From: Halopenitus malekzadehii
GTDB lineage: Archaea > Halobacteriota > Halobacteria > Halobacteriales > Haloferacaceae
DNA length: 64,000 nucleotides
Assembly: GCF_900108505.1 (NCBI RefSeq)
Contig: NZ_FNWU01000001.1
Coordinates: forward strand, 310,001-374,000
Direction of reading: 5' to 3'
Below, piece by piece: positions 32,618 to 41,479 of the stretch. A model generated the notes under the pieces. That model did not search any database, was not told the DNA's origin, and was given only the letters and a program-made list of their open reading frames with translations. A program made the translations under genes and the position numbers. Each line of letters begins with the position of its first letter. The stretch's first letter is position 1.

Positions 32618-33241
32618 ATGGGATTTCTGGAGGACAAGGGCCGCGCGCGGCTCTTCTACAAGTATCTCTCGACGGTGTATGACCGGATCAACCCCTTCGT
32701 GTGGGACGAACGAATGCGCGCGGAGGCGCTCGACTGGCTCGACGTCGAGGCCGGTGATCGCGTGCTCGACGTCGGCTGCGGGACCGGGTTCGGCACCGAG
32801 GGATTGCTCGAGCACACCGACGACGTACACGCTCTCGACCAGAGCGTCCACCAGATGGAGAAGGCGTTCGCCAAGTTCGGCACACGCGATCGCGTCGCCT
32901 TCTACCGCGGGGACGCCGAACGGCTGCCCTTCGCCGACGACACCTTCGACGCCGTGTGGTCCTCCGGCTCCATCGAGTACTGGCCACATCCCGTGGCGGG
33001 GCTTCGTGAGATCCGCCGCGTCGCCAAGCCCGGCGCGTCGGTTCTCGTCGTGGGGCCGGACTACCCCAACTCCCACCTGCTACAGCGGCTGGCCGACGCG
33101 ATCATGCTCTTTTATGACGCCGAGGAAGCCGACCGGATGTTCGAACGGGCCGGGTACGAGACCTATGAGCACCACATTCAGCAGGCCAAACCCGGGAGCC
33201 CGAAGGCGATTACGACGGTTGCGACCGTCCCCGACAGCTGA
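32618..33241 (+). CDS. VTE3-like quinone-ring SAM methyltransferase
   Basis: A 207-residue class I methyltransferase. SAM-binding motif 'VLDVGCGTGFGTEGLLEHTD'. The segments 'LFYKYLSTVYDRINPFVWDE', 'ALDQSVHQMEKA', 'GDAERLPFADDTFD' and 'SSGSIEYWPHPVAGLREI' line up closely with plant MPBQ/MSBQ methyltransferase (VTE3), which methylates the ring in plastoquinone and tocopherol synthesis. In haloarchaea the likely substrate is a menaquinone-type ring (inference). The plant enzyme has a C-terminal membrane anchor; here the protein stops right after the domain. ATG 32618 is chosen. A 12-bp repeat with 21-bp period spans the stop. Confidence 0.82.
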   Translation: MGFLEDKGRARLFYKYLSTVYDRINPFVWDERMRAEALDWLDVEAGDRVLDVGCGTGFGTEGLLEHTDDVHALDQSVHQMEKAFAKFGTRDRVAFYRGDAERLPFADDTFDAVWSSGSIEYWPHPVAGLREIRRVAKPGASVLVVGPDYPNSHLLQRLADAIMLFYDAEEADRMFERAGYETYEHHIQQAKPGSPKAITTVATVPDS

Positions 33242-33344: not shown

Positions 33345-33848
33345 TCACGTCGCCGTCGTCGTCAGCTTCGCCACCGGCTGGTCGCCGTCGAAGATGCGTA
33401 GTTCAACGGTCGTTCCCGGCGTGGGAACCGGATCGTTGGTCCCGGCGACGCGAAACGACGCGCTCTCTCCGGGGGAGAGCGTGGTGGTTCCGGCGCTGTT
33501 GAATGCCCCGGTCGGCCCCGGATCGAATCCGGCGGCCGAAAAGAAGGGTACGGGCGGTTGGTCAGCCAGCGGCTCCCCGTCGACACGCAGTCGAATCCGG
33601 AGGTCCGGGATGGAGAGCGCGTCACCGCCGCGGTGTCTCAGGGTGACCGTCCGGTCCTCGACGGACAGCGATACCGACGCCGTTGGTGCTGGCTCCATCG
33701 GGTCGACGGCGCTCGTGACGAGCACCGCCGATCCGCCGGCAAGGACCGTGACGAGCAGGATCAACAGCACGGTCCCGATCGGGGCGAACCCACGGGACGA
33801 TCGGTTAGGCCGACGAGTTGGCGGGTCGGCGTCCGCGGTCGGTTTCAT
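33345..33848 (-). CDS. Type IV pilin-like secreted protein
   Basis: A 167-residue protein. A charged leader ('MKPTADADPPTRRPNRSSRG') precedes the hydrophobic stretch 'FAPIGTVLLILLVTVLAGGS', the class III signal/pilin helix pattern cleaved by the PibD-type prepilin peptidase. The remaining 120 residues are a beta-rich domain with 'SVSLSVEDRTVTLRHRGGDA' and 'TTTLSPGESASFRVAGTND', as in haloarchaeal pilin-like proteins. It is probably exported and surface-anchored. It starts 40 bp after the upstream secreted-protein gene and is likely in the same transcript. Confidence 0.78.
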   Translation of the reverse strand: MKPTADADPPTRRPNRSSRGFAPIGTVLLILLVTVLAGGSAVLVTSAVDPMEPAPTASVSLSVEDRTVTLRHRGGDALSIPDLRIRLRVDGEPLADQPPVPFFSAAGFDPGPTGAFNSAGTTTLSPGESASFRVAGTNDPVPTPGTTVELRIFDGDQPVAKLTTTAT

Positions 33849-33888
33849 ACCCCGTCTGCGTCGACTTCCGGTTAAAACCCTCGGCCGG

Positions 33889-35271
33889 TCATTCACTCTC
33901 GGACGACGGTTCCGGAACCCGGGGTAGATCCGTCGGCCTGATCTCGGAGATCCACGCGACGCGTGGGTCGTCGACGACCGTCACCCGGTGTGGTCGATCG
34001 GGTGACAGCAGCCAGAGCTCACCGTCGCGATCGGTCGTTCCGACTTCGCGACTGTCGTTGTCAGCGATCGCGACCGTCACGGTGGCGTTGGCGATCGGAT
34101 CGCCGCCCGTTCGGTCGATCGCCTGCACCCGAACCGGTCCGGCAGGATACGTCCGCTCGACGACGAGATCGATGCCGTCCTGTGTCGTCGTGATCGTGTC
34201 GCCGTCGGCGAACGTCTCGAGGTCCCGTTGCTGGTGCTCGATGAAGATATCACCGTCCCCGGCGCTGACGAACGTCCGGAGCCGCCCTCCGTCGAACGGG
34301 ACGGTCACCCGCGTCACGCCGCCGGTCCCGAGTGTGTCGGCCGACCCGCTCCGCTCGTCGATCCGTGGATACGCCGAGAGGGTCCGGTCGAGCGCCCGTT
34401 GGCTGTCACGGCCGCTCCCCTCGGCGGCTCGGTCCCAGCGGTCGCCGCGATACACCTCTCGAAGGTACTGGTCCCCGTCGATCGCCGCGAGGACCATCCC
34501 GTCCGCGTGCGTCTCGACGGCGATCCGATCGGGGGACGCCCCGCCGCGAAGCGTTTCGACGGCGTAGTCTCGAACTGGACCGGAGTAGACGGTGAGCCGG
34601 AACGCCAGCGATTCGGTTTGTAGGTCCGTCTCCGGCGTCTCCGATGCAAGCGCGTTCAGGACTTCGAGCCTCGTCCGGAGGACCTCCGCCGTCGACGAGA
34701 TCCGAGCCAGCTCGATCACGAACTCCTGGTCGGTCAACTCCCCGTTCGTGTGTGCCTCGATCGCTTGGTGTTGTCGCTCGTAGAGCGTCGTTTCCGCCTC
34801 CCGGATCGCGTTTTTGGCGGCGACGAGGCGCCGCTCCCGTCCGCGTGCGCTCTCGGCGGCGCTGACGCGTTCGATGATCTCCGCGGTTCCGATCTCGGCC
34901 GTCGTCTCCGTCGTTTCGAGTCGACTTGCCGGACCGAGGCTCGCGCCGTGATGGGCGATCGAGACCGTCGTCGCACGGTCGATCGGCGGACCGAGGACGT
35001 GAATACGGGTATCGTTTTCGTCGGTCCCGTTCGATTCGGCCTGTGGAATTCCCCCGGTCTGGGTGATTCGCGCTGCGGGGTTCCCTGCCGATCCCGAACT
35101 GCGATCGCTGCCGATCGTGACTTCGCCATCGATCGTGGGTTCGTCTATGGACTCGCCCGGGTCGGCAGATCCCCCGGTGCCGACACCCCCGCCCCAGCCG
35201 ACGACACCGGCCGGTCCCATCACGGCCGCAACCACCAGCGCTGCCGCACACAGGACAGGGAGGGCCCTCAT
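33889..35271 (-). CDS. Secreted surface protein with coiled-coil core, uncharacterised
   Basis: A 460-residue protein from ATG 35271. The N-terminus 'MRALPVLCAAALVVAAVMGP' is a Sec signal peptide. A Gly/Asp-rich linker follows, then a helical region (about 125-225) rich in Glu/Arg and likely coiled-coil ('ESARGRERRLVAAKNAIRE', 'ISSTAEVLRTRLEVLNAL'), then beta-rich domains including a carboxypeptidase-regulatory-like end ('IDRTGGDPIANATVTVAIAD'). ATG 35271 is chosen over ATG 35292 because the 'CTTTTTATT' element on the minus strand lies about 26 bp upstream of it. Haloarchaea-specific; function unknown. It is divergent from the membrane-bound winged-helix regulator. Confidence 0.72.
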   Translation of the reverse strand: MRALPVLCAAALVVAAVMGPAGVVGWGGGVGTGGSADPGESIDEPTIDGEVTIGSDRSSGSAGNPAARITQTGGIPQAESNGTDENDTRIHVLGPPIDRATTVSIAHHGASLGPASRLETTETTAEIGTAEIIERVSAAESARGRERRLVAAKNAIREAETTLYERQHQAIEAHTNGELTDQEFVIELARISSTAEVLRTRLEVLNALASETPETDLQTESLAFRLTVYSGPVRDYAVETLRGGASPDRIAVETHADGMVLAAIDGDQYLREVYRGDRWDRAAEGSGRDSQRALDRTLSAYPRIDERSGSADTLGTGGVTRVTVPFDGGRLRTFVSAGDGDIFIEHQQRDLETFADGDTITTTQDGIDLVVERTYPAGPVRVQAIDRTGGDPIANATVTVAIADNDSREVGTTDRDGELWLLSPDRPHRVTVVDDPRVAWISEIRPTDLPRVPEPSSESE

Positions 35272-35463
35272 CGAGCGGAGATCCGTCGGCATCGAATAAA
35301 AAGCCCCGTATCGCTTCGTCGTCGCGTATCGGCATTGGCCCCGTCGTCACGTGCCGGTGCTGCTTCGCCGTCGGCGCTCGATCGATGCCATCGCGTACCG
35401 GTCGTGGCACGGAAATCAACCGATGAAAAGGATTTTGCCACCCGCACGTGAGTGAACGCCTGT

Positions 35464-36969
35464 ATGCGGTCGTCCGCCCTCCCTATCGTTCTCGCCTTCC
35501 TGCTCCTCCTCTCCGGAGGGCCCATCGCCGCCGTCGCCGGGGCCCAGTCGGGTGGCCCGACACCACTCGACTCCGATGACGTCGCCTCCGTCGGCGGCGG
35601 CCCGACGGAACCGGGCGACAGCGCCGCCGCCGTCGGATCACGACCGCGACAGATCGCCGATCTCGACGTCCGTTCTCGGACGGTCTTCGAGATCGACCTC
35701 CAGTCGGATCGTGATGCGCGCTGGACGGTCACCGTTCGATACGTCCTCACGGACGACAACGAGACCGCGGCCTTCGAGCGCATCGCCGGTCGATTCGGAT
35801 CCGGTGACGTCGGCCCCTCGGCTGACCTCTATCGAAACCTCGCCGCCGGCGCCTCCGCGGCCGCGGGTCGGGAGATGTCCATCGATGACGTCGACCGTGA
35901 GACGGCCCTCGATCGCGGCGTCGATCTGGATGACGTCGACGGGATCGACTCCCTCGAGGGTCTCGAGGACGGCGAGACGGTCGCGGTCGGTGAGCTCCGC
36001 CTCACGTTCACGTGGACGGCGTTCCTCAGAGCTGACGGCGATCAGCTCGTCCTCGACGACGCCTTTCGAACGGCCGATGGCGGCACGTGGCTGCCGTCGC
36101 TCGATGCCACCCAGCGAATGGTGATCCATCCGCCGGATGGCTATCAGGCCGATTCCTTCCCCGGGATCGGGCTTTCGCTGTCGGACCGCGCGGTGGTTAT
36201 CGATGGGCCGCGAACCTTCGGTCCGGACGACCACATCGAGGTGGTCTACTCGCCTGCGCCGGGTGCGATCTCCGGACCGCCGTGGCTGCTTTTGGCCGGC
36301 GCGATCGTCCTCGCGGCGATGGTGATCGCGATCGGTTTGGTTCGGTATCGCCGTCACGAGGTGTCGGCACCCGAATCGACCGCCGGAACGGACCAGTCCA
36401 CGGCCAGCGAGTCCGGCGAGACGGAGTCGGGAATGGCCGTCGAATCCACCGAACCGACCGGTGGAGCGGCTGATGTCGAGGACGCCGAAGCTCCCGATAC
36501 CGCTCCTGGAGCCGATTCGACGGATGTGTCCCTCGAATCCGGGGCAGGAGACGGGACGGCGGCCGGATCGGACGAGACGGTTGACGAACCGGACGAGTCG
36601 GTTGACGAACCGGACGAACCGGAAGATACGGACGGGACGACGGAAACCGGTGCAGCGGAGACGGCGGATGGAACCGAAACAGCGGACGAAGCGGATGAGG
36701 CCGACGATGAGAAGGCCGGCGATGAGGGGGCTGCGACGGCGCCGGATCCCTCCCTGCTCTCCGACGAGGAGCGCGTGGAGGCGCTGCTCGAACGCAACGG
36801 TGGCCGAATGCGGCAGGCCGACATCGTCTCCGAAACCGGCTGGTCGGACGCGAAGGTGTCCCAGCTCCTCTCCGCGATGGCCGACGAGGAGCGTGTCGAG
36901 AAGCTTCGCCTCGGTCGTGAGAACCTCATCTCCCTTCCGGACCACACGCCCGAGGACGTGGAGGAATAG
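35464..36969 (+). CDS. Membrane-tethered winged-helix regulator with extracellular domain
   Basis: A 501-residue type I membrane protein. Residues 1-30 are a signal peptide ('MRSSALPIVLAFLLLLSGG'). An ectodomain (about 60-270) is beta-rich ('WTVTVRYVLTDDNETAAFER', 'GELRLTFTWTAFLRADGDQL', 'MVIHPPDGYQADSF'). One membrane helix (about 275-296, 'LLLAGAIVLAAMVIAIGL') leads to a 130-residue acidic low-complexity linker with 'VDEPDE' repeats, then a winged helix (about 431-490: 'EERVEALLERNGGRMRQADI', 'SDAKVSQLLSAMADEERVEK'). This layout fits a one-component system that senses outside and binds DNA inside. GTG 35452 is a possible alternative start. It is divergent from the secreted-protein/pilin operon, its likely target. 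Confidence 0.78.
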   Translation: MRSSALPIVLAFLLLLSGGPIAAVAGAQSGGPTPLDSDDVASVGGGPTEPGDSAAAVGSRPRQIADLDVRSRTVFEIDLQSDRDARWTVTVRYVLTDDNETAAFERIAGRFGSGDVGPSADLYRNLAAGASAAAGREMSIDDVDRETALDRGVDLDDVDGIDSLEGLEDGETVAVGELRLTFTWTAFLRADGDQLVLDDAFRTADGGTWLPSLDATQRMVIHPPDGYQADSFPGIGLSLSDRAVVIDGPRTFGPDDHIEVVYSPAPGAISGPPWLLLAGAIVLAAMVIAIGLVRYRRHEVSAPESTAGTDQSTASESGETESGMAVESTEPTGGAADVEDAEAPDTAPGADSTDVSLESGAGDGTAAGSDETVDEPDESVDEPDEPEDTDGTTETGAAETADGTETADEADEADDEKAGDEGAATAPDPSLLSDEERVEALLERNGGRMRQADIVSETGWSDAKVSQLLSAMADEERVEKLRLGRENLISLPDHTPEDVEE

Positions 36970-37080: not shown

Positions 37081-37869
37081 ATGAAGGTGCTGGTAACCGT
37101 CAAGGAGGTGGCCGAAGTCGGGGACGACTTCGCGATCGAGGGAACCGACATCGCCGAGGGCGACCTCGAGTACGACCTCAACGAGTGGGACGACTACGCG
37201 ATCGAGGCGGGCGTCCAACTCGCCGAGGCCGGGGTCGCCGACGAGGTCGTCGCGCTCACGATCGGACCCGAGCGGTCCGAGGAAACGATCCGGATGGCGC
37301 TCGCGAAAGGTGCCGACCGCGCCGTCCGCGTCTGGGACGACGCGATCGAGGACGCCTTCCTCGACGTCGAGACCAAGGTCGGCCTGCTCGAGGCGATCGT
37401 CGACGAGGAGGAGCCGGACCTCGTGCTCTCGGGCGTCCAGGCCGCCGACGACGCCTTCGGTGCGACCGGCGTCGCGCTCGCCGACCGGATCGGGTTCGAA
37501 CACGCCGCCGTCGTCAACGACCTCGACCTCGACGCTGATGCGGGCGTCGCGAACGTCCGCCGCGAGCTCGAGGGCGGCGTCGAGGAGCTGACCGAGGTCG
37601 ATATGCCGGCCGTTCTCACCGTCCAGACCGGGCTCAACGAGCCTCGGTACGCGAGCCTCCGCGGGATCCGGCAGGCACAGCGCAAGGAGATCGCGACACG
37701 GGACCTCGCCGATATCGGGCTGTCCCCCGCCGACGTCGACGGCGCGTTGACCGTCACCGAGATGTACGAGCCCGAAAGCGAATCCGACGCGGAGATCATC
37801 GAGGGCGACGCCGGAGAGGCCGCCGGGCGCCTTACCGAGGTCCTGCGTGAGAAGGGGGTCGATGCCTGA
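37081..37869 (+). CDS. etfB: Electron transfer flavoprotein, beta subunit
   Basis: A 262-residue EtfB/FixA protein with 'MKVLVTVKEVAEVGDDF', 'YDLNEWDDYAIEAGVQLAEA', 'DLVLSGVQAADDAFGATGVA' and 'TVQTGLNEPRYASLRGI', the last being the family signature region contacting AMP or FAD. With EtfA it accepts electrons from acyl-CoA dehydrogenases and similar flavoenzymes and passes them to the membrane quinone pool. The glutaryl-CoA dehydrogenase-like protein at 20750-21928 is a possible donor. The stop overlaps the EtfA start (TGATG). Confidence 0.95.
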   Translation: MKVLVTVKEVAEVGDDFAIEGTDIAEGDLEYDLNEWDDYAIEAGVQLAEAGVADEVVALTIGPERSEETIRMALAKGADRAVRVWDDAIEDAFLDVETKVGLLEAIVDEEEPDLVLSGVQAADDAFGATGVALADRIGFEHAAVVNDLDLDADAGVANVRRELEGGVEELTEVDMPAVLTVQTGLNEPRYASLRGIRQAQRKEIATRDLADIGLSPADVDGALTVTEMYEPESESDAEIIEGDAGEAAGRLTEVLREKGVDA

Positions 37870-38828
37870 TGGCCGACCCAGCCGTTCTCGCCGTCGCCGA
37901 ACACCGTCGAGGGGAGCTTCGCGACGTCTCCTTCGAGCTGCTCACCGCAGGCCGAGAACTCGCGGACGCCATCGGTGGCGAGTTACACGTTGCGGTGATA
38001 TCCGGCGACGTCGAGGCACACGCGGACGCGCTGAACCGTGAGGGCGTCGACGCGATCCACACGGTCCCGGTGGGCGAGGAGTTCGATCACACCGTCTACC
38101 AGGGCGCCGTCGAGGAACTGGTGGACGCTCACGACCCGGCGACCGTCCTGTTCCCCAACTCGGTCAACGGGCTCGATTACGCACCCGCGGTCGCGGAGAG
38201 TCTCGGCGTTCCGCTCGTCACCGACGCCATCGATGTCGCCTACGACGACGAGCTGACCGTCACCCGCGAGCAGTACGGCTCGAAGGTCGAGACCACGCTC
38301 GCGGTCGAGGGCGACCGATACGCGCTCACGGTTCGTGGCGGCGAGTGGCCGGCCGCGGACGGCACCGGGGACGCGGTCGTCGAGTCGTTCACCGTCGACG
38401 TGGATCCCGCCGACTCGGGTGCACGCGTCCAAGGGTACGAGGAGGTCGGCGGCGGCGACGTGGACATCGCCGATGCGGACGTCCTCGTGTCGGTCGGCCG
38501 CGGGATCGAGGAGGAGGACAACCTCGAGTTGATCTTCGATCTCGCGGAGGCGATGGATGCGACGGTCTCCTCCTCGCGCCCGATCGTTGACAACGGTTGG
38601 CTGCCGAAGAACCGGCAGGTCGGCCAGTCGGGGAAGGTCGTGACGCCGGACGTCTACCTCGCGATCGGGATCTCGGGCGCCGTCCAACACGTCGCCGGGA
38701 TGAAGGGAGCCGAGACGATCATCGCGATCAACACGGACCCGAACGCGCCCATCTTCGACATCGCGGATTACGGCATCGTCGGCGACCTCTTCGACGTCGT
38801 TCCCGAGCTCATCGACGACTTCGAGTAG
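37869..38828 (+). CDS. etfA: Electron transfer flavoprotein, alpha subunit
   Basis: A 319-residue EtfA/FixB protein. The N-terminal domain has 'ELRDVSFELLTAGRELADAI' and 'PATVLFPNSVNGLDYAPAVA'; the C-terminal FAD domain has 'ADVLVSVGRGIEEEDNLELI', 'SSSRPIVDNGWLPKNRQVGQ' and 'GISGAVQHVAGMKGAETII', ending 'DYGIVGDLFDVVPELID'. It forms a heterodimer with EtfB and carries the electron-shuttling FAD. Its ATG uses the last base of the EtfB TGA stop, so translation is coupled. Confidence 0.95.
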   Translation: MADPAVLAVAEHRRGELRDVSFELLTAGRELADAIGGELHVAVISGDVEAHADALNREGVDAIHTVPVGEEFDHTVYQGAVEELVDAHDPATVLFPNSVNGLDYAPAVAESLGVPLVTDAIDVAYDDELTVTREQYGSKVETTLAVEGDRYALTVRGGEWPAADGTGDAVVESFTVDVDPADSGARVQGYEEVGGGDVDIADADVLVSVGRGIEEEDNLELIFDLAEAMDATVSSSRPIVDNGWLPKNRQVGQSGKVVTPDVYLAIGISGAVQHVAGMKGAETIIAINTDPNAPIFDIADYGIVGDLFDVVPELIDDFE

Positions 38829-39690: not shown

Positions 39691-40416
39691 TCAGAACGGC
39701 GATTCCGACCGCTCCATCATCGCGAACCCGCCGGCCTGGTCGTGAACGGTGAGCCCCCCGGTTCCGATCTCGAGCGGGAAGATGTCGGTATCGATGTCCT
39801 GTTTCCGCATCTTGGCCACCCAGACGTATCGGTTGACGCCGGATTCCGTCGGCGTCTGAATGAGGTAGATGTTCCCGTCGGTGAGGAAGTTCTCCAGGCC
39901 GATCTCCGTGTCGGGGAAGACGGCGCCCTGTTCGTTGATCAAAAGCGACGTCAGCCCGCTCTCCTTGAGGATGTCGGAGAACTTCAGCAGGGAGGTTCGT
40001 TTCTCGTGTTCGTCCTCGAAGAACAGCTGAAACATCGACAGCGAGTCGAGCACCAGCCGGTCGAACTCGCCCTCGGCGACCGTCTCGAGGAGCCGGTCGA
40101 TCGTCTCGGTGAAATCCTCGATGCGGAGCATCTCCCGTTTGTCCAGGATCACGATCTCGCCGTCGTCGACGAGGTCGCCGAAATCCTCGAACCCGACGGA
40201 TTCGGCGGCCTCCCGGATATCCTCCTCGTTCTCCTCGAAGGAGACGTACACCCCGCGGTCGCCGTGTTCGGTCACCCCGGTATAGAGGTACTGAATGCCG
40301 AAGATGCTCTTCCCGGTTCCCGGGTTTCCGGAGACGAGCACCGTCGACCGTTCGGTGATCCCGCCGCCCAGGATCGAGTCGAGGCCGTCGACGCCGGTGG
40401 AGACGAGGTGTGGCAT
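39691..40416 (-). CDS. KaiC-like RecA-superfamily ATPase
   Basis: A 241-residue single-domain KaiC/RAD55-type ATPase: 'VSTGVDGLDSILGGGITERS' start, Walker A 'VSGNPGTGKSIFGIQ', acidic pair in 'GVYVSFEENEEDIRE', Walker B 'FDRLVLDSLSMFQLFF', and 'LLINEQGAVFPDTEIG'. Archaeal members act in signal transduction, often with histidine kinases or motility; the partner is not identifiable here. It converges on the HTH gene at 39331-39666. Confidence 0.88.
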   Translation of the reverse strand: MPHLVSTGVDGLDSILGGGITERSTVLVSGNPGTGKSIFGIQYLYTGVTEHGDRGVYVSFEENEEDIREAAESVGFEDFGDLVDDGEIVILDKREMLRIEDFTETIDRLLETVAEGEFDRLVLDSLSMFQLFFEDEHEKRTSLLKFSDILKESGLTSLLINEQGAVFPDTEIGLENFLTDGNIYLIQTPTESGVNRYVWVAKMRKQDIDTDIFPLEIGTGGLTVHDQAGGFAMMERSESPF

Positions 40417-40573
40417 ACCGTCTCCCCATCCGGCAGCGATGGATAAAGTCCTCCCGGTCGATCCGGGCACACGACGGGTTGATCGGAACGCTCCGTGGCC
40501 GATCGGGCTGTCCGATGTCACGTCTGGATACGCACGACAACCCCTATAGGTGTTCGTCCCGAACGTCCCGAGA

Positions 40574-41479
40574 ATGACCGAGGAGTTCGACCTGCTCGAG
40601 TCCGATGGCCAGCCGGGCGACGAGTGGGAGGAACTCGACGTCTCCGACACGGAGGCCGACCGTATCGCCCGCCGGCAGGACCGGGAGTTCAACGAGTTCC
40701 GCAAGCGGCTGAAGGACGCCGACCAGTTCAAACTCGACGGCTCCGTCTTCGACGACGCCACGCTGGCGGCGATCTACAAGCTCGTGCAGGACGGCTACAT
40801 CACCGCCTTCGGCGGGCCGGTCTCGACGGGCAAGGAGGCCAACGTCTTCGAGGCGTTCGGCGAGGACGAAGACCAGGAGGTCGCCGTGAAGATCTACCGG
40901 ATCAACTCCTCGAACTTCACCCAGATGCGCGAGTATCTCGAGGGTGACCCGCGATTCGAGGGCATCGCCTCGGACAAGAAGGCGACCGTGCTAGCCTGGA
41001 CGAAAAAGGAGTTCGCGAACCTCCGTCGTGCTCGCGACGCCGGCGTGCGCGTCCCCGAGCCGATCGCCGTCCAACGGAACGCGCTCGTGATGGAGCTCGT
41101 TGGCCACGCCGACGACCGCGCGCGGCGGCTCTCGGAGGTGACCGTCGAGAACCCCGAAACGGCCTACGAGGTCGTTCGGGAGTATATGCGCCGGCTCTAT
41201 CGGGCCGGGTTGATCCACGGCGACCTCTCGGAGTACAACCTGATCATTCACGACGGGGAGCTCGTCGTCATCGATCTCGGTCAGGCGGCCACCATCCACC
41301 ACCCGAACGCCCGGACGTTCCTCGAGCGGGACTGCCGGAACGTGGCGGCCTTCTTTTCCAGACTGGGGATCGACGTCGACGATGGCGATCTGTGGGATTA
41401 CGTGACCGAACCGGAGCCGGATCCCGAAGCCGGTCGTGACGACGACTCGGGAGTCGACGACGCGATCATCGACTCGTAG
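40574..41479 (+). CDS. rio1: RIO1-family serine/threonine protein kinase
   Basis: A 301-residue atypical kinase. The Rio1 signature 'STGKEANVFEAFGED' forms the P-loop, 'VAVKIYRINSSNFTQM' has the catalytic Lys and Rio1 flexible-loop start, 'GLIHGDLSEYNLIIHDGEL' is the catalytic loop and 'VVIDLGQAATIHHPNA' is the metal-binding Asp. Rio1 works in late small-subunit maturation. ATG 40574 is chosen over an in-frame GTG at 40550. A 17-bp tandem duplication covers the stop codon. Confidence 0.94.
   Translation: MTEEFDLLESDGQPGDEWEELDVSDTEADRIARRQDREFNEFRKRLKDADQFKLDGSVFDDATLAAIYKLVQDGYITAFGGPVSTGKEANVFEAFGEDEDQEVAVKIYRINSSNFTQMREYLEGDPRFEGIASDKKATVLAWTKKEFANLRRARDAGVRVPEPIAVQRNALVMELVGHADDRARRLSEVTVENPETAYEVVREYMRRLYRAGLIHGDLSEYNLIIHDGELVVIDLGQAATIHHPNARTFLERDCRNVAAFFSRLGIDVDDGDLWDYVTEPEPDPEAGRDDDSGVDDAIIDS

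Follow-up and report, generated by a model that had tools for sequence, protein, structure and literature searches.

A membrane-tethered winged-helix regulator and a divergently encoded secreted protein are conserved neighbours in haloarchaea

Anatomy and proposed function of the Reg-Sec pair

The analyzed window, a stretch of 64,000 nucleotides from Halopenitus malekzadehii (contig NZ_FNWU01000001.1, positions 310,001 to 374,000), encodes a membrane-tethered winged-helix regulator, here termed Reg, divergently from a secreted protein termed Sec, which is followed by a gene for a pilin-like protein. The best-supported account of this locus, and one that we consider probable, is that Reg is a transmembrane transcription regulator with Sec as its dedicated secreted partner. 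The basis of the pair is the anatomy of the proteins, their pairing across the order, their joint absence, their retention when unlinked, their correlated evolution, and the occurrence of a like pair in a clade of paralogous regulators. In the proposed mechanism, Sec would be exported outside the cell, where its helical DUF7096 domain would be bound or modulated (that is, “read”) by the DUF7345 ectodomain of Reg just outside the membrane. The state of this complex would then pass via the single transmembrane helix to the cytoplasmic winged helix, which presumably acts on DNA from the membrane, and Reg probably controls its own promoter. The genes for Reg, Sec, and the pilin are all real and lie where a preliminary description of the window had placed them; their start codons, picked by signal peptide and conservation, were moved from GTG 35452 to ATG 35464 (Reg), from ATG 35292 to ATG 35271 (Sec), and from GTG 33896 to ATG 33848 (pilin). 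The features of the pair are as follows.

35464..36969, + strand: Reg, membrane-tethered regulator (Pfam, structure model, alignment of 43 orthologues)
35674..36279, + strand: DUF7345 ectodomain of Reg, residues about 71-272 (model, Pfam)
36280..36366, + strand: single transmembrane helix of Reg, residues 273-301 (sequence, model)
36367..36753, + strand: acidic linker of Reg, 129 residues (sequence; low confidence in the model)
36754..36939, + strand: DUF7343 winged helix of Reg, residues 431-492 (alignment, model, structure comparison, Pfam)
35422..35439, + strand: conserved promoter element of Reg, GATGAAAAGGATTTTGCC, candidate autoregulatory operator (motif analysis, tempered by a core-promoter control)
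33889..35271, - strand: Sec, secreted DUF7096/DUF7094/Fn3_arc protein (Pfam, model, co-occurrence, paralogous pairs)

Reg is built, in this order, of a signal peptide, the DUF7345 ectodomain, one transmembrane helix, an acidic linker, and the DUF7343 winged helix, and both Pfam matches (E 4.9e-42 for DUF7345 and 1.5e-30 for DUF7343) are above the Pfam cut-off. Thus Pfam, the structure model, and the sequence agree with the preliminary description, which had proposed a type I membrane protein with a beta-rich ectodomain and a cytoplasmic winged helix, and the predicted anatomy is that of one protein spanning from the outside to DNA. The fast-evolving ectodomain is modelled mostly confidently (blockwise predicted local distance difference test scores mostly >80) as a beta-rich fold with two helices. 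None of the Foldseek hits listed for it exceeded a TM-score by query of 0.20, and they were mutually inconsistent (FMO protein, OST subunits, M1 peptidases, and LppM); the VIA-align matches listed for Reg concern the winged helix only. The best of these winged-helix matches have a Z score of 10.4, with root-mean-square deviations (rmsd) of 1.7 (62 aligned) and 2.6 (65 aligned). The transmembrane helix is a hydrophobic stretch in the sequence and a helix in the model. The linker carries 43 acidic (D/E) versus one basic (K/R) residue; its length is not conserved, ranging from 31 to 151 residues (median 59) among the 43 Reg orthologues, and therefore the long linker is, on these alignments, species-specific and no defining trait of the Reg family. 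The winged helix is almost invariant across the same orthologues, and its recognition helix, WSDAKVSQLLS, varies hardly at all. Among named relatives, the closest one found is Halopenitus persicus, whose regulator is 61% identical to Reg in the best segment, and a search of the locus against NCBIfam gave no match above cut-off.

Sec combines a signal peptide with DUF7096, DUF7094, and Fn3_arc domains (Pfam, curated cut-offs), and no C-terminal anchor is seen in its sequence. It had been described as a secreted helical protein; the signal peptide supports secretion, whereas the structure model places helices mainly in the N-terminal half and makes the C-terminal half beta. The last beta domain resembles immunoglobulin (Ig)-like and macroglobulin folds, with no lipocalin among the matches listed. 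Of two profiles, neither reaches a solved relative at a useful E-value, one giving no hit at 0.01 and the other 0.024 at best. Neither a weak resemblance to YpeB (Z 7.8, rmsd 4.8, 124 aligned) nor helical matches to STAT (Z about 10, with rmsd values mostly of about 5 or higher) were used as an identity; the PepSY domain (PF03413) stays below cut-off in L261.

Conservation and correlated evolution of Reg and Sec

Gene order was compared in 56 candidate orthologue loci, consisting of the window and 55 out of 60 loci (the remaining five being paralogue loci or a repeat), and in a second set of 80 named loci. Reg and Sec are both found in 51 of the 56 candidate loci, always divergently, and in 73 of the 80 named loci, divergently in 72. 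The preliminary description had made its case depend on conserved neighbourhood of all three families: Reg and Sec are indeed conserved neighbours, so that the refuting condition it had set fails for them; the pilin is more loosely attached and was not found beside several pairs. In the loci holding both genes of a combination, Sec and the pilin share a strand (43/43 in the first set and 68/68 named), the pilin and a methyltransferase are convergent (41/41 and 68/68), and the electron transfer flavoprotein (ETF) genes lie near Reg on its strand (38/42 and 42/50). The arrangement of Reg, Sec, and the pilin is far beyond chance, and the conserved neighbourhood supports a predicted functional link between Reg and the divergent secreted gene. 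The methyltransferase, ETF, and pilin genes are long-standing neighbours of the pair, not required parts of it:

33345..33848, - strand: pilin-like protein (Pilin_N), encoded downstream of Sec and in its orientation (Pfam)
32618..33241, + strand: S-adenosylmethionine-dependent methyltransferase (Methyltransf_11/UbiE-type), a conserved flanking gene that converges on the pilin (Pfam, synteny)
37081..38828, + strand: EtfB and EtfA, following Reg on its strand, a flank that is conserved though more loosely (Pfam, synteny)

The two families are also distributed together. All 194 genomes sampled from the class contain DUF7345, and Haloferax volcanii, the sole one among 14 control genomes to carry it, has DUF7094 as well. 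Within the order, DUF7094, a domain of Sec, was found in 286 of 293 genomes, nearly always in a single copy. The tree of the regulator family separates the syntenic orthologues (O) from two paralogue clades, P6 and P7. In six of the seven genomes with no DUF7094 hit, all regulators fall with P6 or P7 and none is of the O type; in the seventh (G204), an O-type regulator is accompanied by an adjacent, diverged Sec that was found with a more sensitive profile. All five Sec-bearing genomes compared in parallel have an O-type regulator scoring 350-453 bits, versus at most 257.5 bits in the other seven. Both genes are retained though unlinked in Halohasta and Salinigranum, and in the latter Sec alone has moved. 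In a comparison of two congeners, G204 (L315) shows strong divergence of both Reg and Sec relative to G298 (L316), with normal flanking genes.

Evolutionary distances were correlated in 50 of 112 loci that were left once near-identical ones had been removed (fewer where a gene is missing), with the methyltransferase or EtfA plus EtfB as the control and 2,000 permutations. Distances of the ectodomain and Sec correlate beyond the methyltransferase (r 0.55, n 50, p 0.0005) and beyond ETF (r 0.51, n 36, p 0.0005), both p values being the floor of the permutations. Correlations of the ectodomain with the pilin (0.24 and 0.12), with EtfA (0.09), and with EtfB (0.31) are weaker, as are those of the methyltransferase pairs.

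The pair recurs around the P6 paralogues: a Sec-like gene adjoins the P6-type regulator in 18 of 27 loci, on the same strand in 15 (13 downstream and two upstream) and divergently in three. Most of these Sec-like proteins have a signal peptide, and none has an obvious C-terminal transmembrane helix. No pilin was found beside the P6 pairs in loci reaching about 1.5 kb to each side. A profile of 14 Sec-like neighbours (13 of the 18, plus that of L310) matches the helical domain of Sec over 144 columns (hhalign probability 98, E 3e-13). Because DUF7345 proteins that lack the helix-turn-helix (HTH) domain adjoin DUF7096 genes in two loci (L312 and L311), the predicted pairing points to the extracellular parts of the proteins rather than to a regulator and its target. 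The first of these loci, in Halohasta salina (L312:386-4012), holds a second set, in which genes for an HTH-less DUF7345 protein and a DUF7096 protein are accompanied by a full regulator in divergent orientation. In the genome of the window, the P6 paralogue lies near OapC and a 2'-5' RNA ligase (L006, contig 21), and the P7 paralogue follows the proteasome alpha gene (L007:4625-7180, contig 26); further P7 loci include L206-L219.

Several observations weigh against Sec as a dedicated partner of Reg. None of the 14 P7-type loci has an adjoining Sec-like gene, nor has the P6 paralogue of the window's own genus (L006). Some P6 partners fall under the DUF7096 cut-off of 27 bits (19.5 in L240 and 24.7 in L243), and in L282 an HTH-less DUF7345 protein lies beside a weaker Sec-like gene with no DUF7096 hit. 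Rearranged placement of Reg and Sec is seen only in Halohasta, Salinigranum, and L146; the Sec-less genomes represent few independent events (with f9 counted three times), and apparent co-occurrence can also arise when a linked pair is deleted jointly. The ectodomain correlates with EtfB as well (0.31), and the HTH domain with Sec (0.36 and 0.45); therefore the correlation signal is not confined to the ectodomain. Finally, the ectodomain and Sec both evolve fast, the distances approach saturation, and fast evolution of both can yield correlation by a shared rate.

Promoter elements and alternative explanations

The linkage could instead reflect Sec being an ordinary envelope protein that is a regulated target of Reg and no signalling partner. 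A gene adjoining its own regulator is a common cause of linkage, and the P6 pairs, mostly on the same strand, could be co-transcribed. The HTH-less DUF7345 proteins that adjoin DUF7096 genes argue against this explanation, as do the retention of Reg and Sec together when unlinked and the fact that Sec correlates most strongly with the ectodomain; we consider it unlikely.

The regulatory sequences bear on a further alternative, put forward in the preliminary description, in which Reg senses a surface and activates the divergently encoded Sec-pilin operon, forming a sense-and-adhere module. An element with the order-wide consensus GATGGAAAGCGTTTT is present upstream of Reg in 47 of 50 loci, the other three having doubtful starts or poor matches (the start codon was not found in two loci of the promoter set), and overlaps the expected transcription factor B recognition element (BRE) and TATA box of a leaderless promoter. 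In 64 named loci, the spacing from the end of the element to the Reg ATG is 25-30 nt in 60 and 35-36 nt in four, whereas its distance to Sec is widely variable; in loci from which Sec is displaced, the element is still at Reg. A single copy of the exact form ATRGAAARCGTTTT is present in each of 27 out of 60 genomes, and by coordinate comparison all 27 copies are at Reg; one of them belongs to the Halohasta-like genome G022. The copy in the window, GATGAAAAGGATTTTGCC, is a diverged form with no match to the searched pattern (0 sites in G000). Allowing one mismatch gave 43 sites, of which 35 are at Reg by coordinates; the eight others, judged by position and not by neighbouring gene, show no further target shared between genera. 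Two genomes of genus g3 have the same one-mismatch copy away from Reg (G004:C1:233357 and G031:C1:2075127).

The promoters of the neighbouring genes were compared in a random 36 loci per gene. Conservation amounts to 19.5 bits for Reg, 17.6 for EtfB, 14.5 for the methyltransferase, and 10.7 for Sec, and in the EtfB and methyltransferase promoters conservation is found at a distance similar to that of the Reg element. The latter therefore represents, at least in part, conservation of a leaderless core promoter; after this control the autoregulatory operator was withdrawn as a firm claim and is kept as a candidate. Individual leaderless promoters of haloarchaea seem to preserve a sequence of their own for long periods. 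The EtfB core promoter (upstream of window position 37081), for instance, is conserved across the order as TTnCGAAAnnGTTTA. The P7 promoters contain, at the corresponding position (about -40 to -25), a partly palindromic element of another sequence (GTCAAAAGGTCTTTTGAC in L211), and the P7 recognition helix differs from that of Reg; these differences would fit autoregulation. In three genomes of the window's genus, a dyad-like sequence, GACGGATCTCCG, is present between the Sec TATA box and the ATG (upstream of window position 35271, - strand).

The conserved divergent promoter region, the conserved co-orientation of Sec and the pilin, and the Pilin_N match of the pilin (PF07790; 32.4 bits versus a cut-off of 25.2) favor a sense-and-adhere module, as does the binding of pilus promoters by the archaeal membrane regulator ArnR in Sulfolobus (PMC6396743). 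By a loose pattern (a basic residue and then Gly or Ala ahead of a hydrophobic stretch), a class III signal peptide is present in 106 of 114 open reading frames orthologous to the pilin, with SSRG-FAPIG in the window. However, the Sec promoter is the least conserved of the four, the conserved element is locked to the Reg start, and in Halohasta the Sec-pilin-methyltransferase group stands apart from Reg, with the exact element of the Halohasta-like genome only at Reg. The claim that Reg targets the neighbouring surface genes is thus not supported. Beside several Reg-Sec pairs no pilin was found, and nothing ties the pair to adhesion. We regard such a module as rather improbable, somewhat more so than Sec as a plain target. 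The pilin is a looser member of the block and not a required part; as a core member it was rejected, since it was not found beside several pairs or beside the paralogous pairs and co-evolves weakly with Reg. A function in ETF or quinone metabolism was likewise rejected, as ETF is absent or distant in several lineages.

A conserved order of core genes (methyltransferase, ETF, pilin, Sec, and Reg) with no special functional link, to which the equally conserved methyltransferase and ETF flanks and the adjacency of Reg to ETF might point, is very improbable given the co-absence of Reg and Sec, their retention when unlinked, and the recurrence of homologous pairs with no adjoining pilin, methyltransferase, or ETF gene (including Halohasta salina L312).

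Relation to known membrane-bound regulators

Transmembrane transcription regulators (TTRs) have been mined from 404 archaeal species, yielding 1,384 archaeal TTRs (Demey et al. 2023, PMC10269533). Like these, Reg joins a DNA-binding domain and a transmembrane region in one protein, with DUF7343 above cut-off, at least one transmembrane region, and predicted regulation from the membrane. The Reg family, its ectodomain, and a secreted partner are not described in the available text of that survey, and the string “Halobacteri” is absent from its main text. The Sulfolobus regulators ArnR and ArnR1 resemble Reg in being archaeal membrane-bound one-component HTH regulators, and they act on archaellum and pilus promoters (PMC6396743). 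ArnR differs in having an N-terminal HTH, a putative HAMP domain, and two C-terminal transmembrane helices, whereas Reg has a single transmembrane helix and a C-terminal winged helix; moreover, no secreted partner is described for ArnR in the available text (PMC6396743), whereas Sec is the proposed partner of Reg. The general idea of archaeal one-component membrane regulators, some acting on pili, is thus already published (PMC10269533, PMC6396743).

The bacterial co-component systems ToxR/ToxS and VtrA/VtrC likewise comprise a membrane-tethered winged-helix regulator and a fast-evolving extracytoplasmic partner encoded alongside (Kinch et al. 2022, PMC9214523; PMC13042144). Their regulators have an N-terminal HTH, a transmembrane segment, and a C-terminal periplasmic domain, whereas this order is reversed in the archaeal Reg. 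Their lipocalin-like partner is co-transcribed from a downstream, often overlapping gene of the same operon, whereas Sec, modelled as a secreted protein with a helical domain and beta domains of which the last is Ig-like, is encoded divergently; a same-strand downstream gene occurs only with the P6 paralogues. A neighbouring gene for an extracytoplasmic partner is present at the Reg locus in the form of Sec, with its signal peptide and presumed partnership. ToxR/ToxS and VtrA/VtrC are obligate heterodimers, whereas the Reg-Sec pair is known from genes alone. Reg-Sec probably works like these systems, with reversed topology and other folds; it is not classed as a co-component member, since domain order and gene arrangement differ and the likeness stands without shown homology.

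If Sec is the dedicated partner of Reg, the two genes would constitute an archaeal outside-to-DNA sensor with a topology opposite to the bacterial one. A wider proposal is more tentative. Haloarchaea may possess a lineage-wide class of such two-gene sensors, invented independently of the bacterial co-component systems, in which the secreted DUF7096 protein would serve outside the cell as a signal or sentinel for DUF7345 receptors carrying their own transcription factor, with the paralogous pairs acting as parallel channels within one cell; we would sooner doubt than assert this. The gene pair is nearly universal and single-copy in haloarchaea and has no described function in the open-licence PubMed Central papers searched, in which no mention of DUF7345, DUF7343, DUF7096, or DUF7094 was found by name or accession; Pfam assigns no function to these four families. 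A winged-helix protein in the biofilm proteome table of Halorubrum lacusprofundi, Hlac_0605 (PMC5118699), could not be matched to Reg. The presence of both families in Haloferax volcanii makes the proposed pair approachable in a tractable species. Further along the window, positions 39691-40761 hold a gene for a KaiC-like ATPase; the KaiC-like protein CirA has been reported to regulate motility in H. volcanii (PMC13286277).

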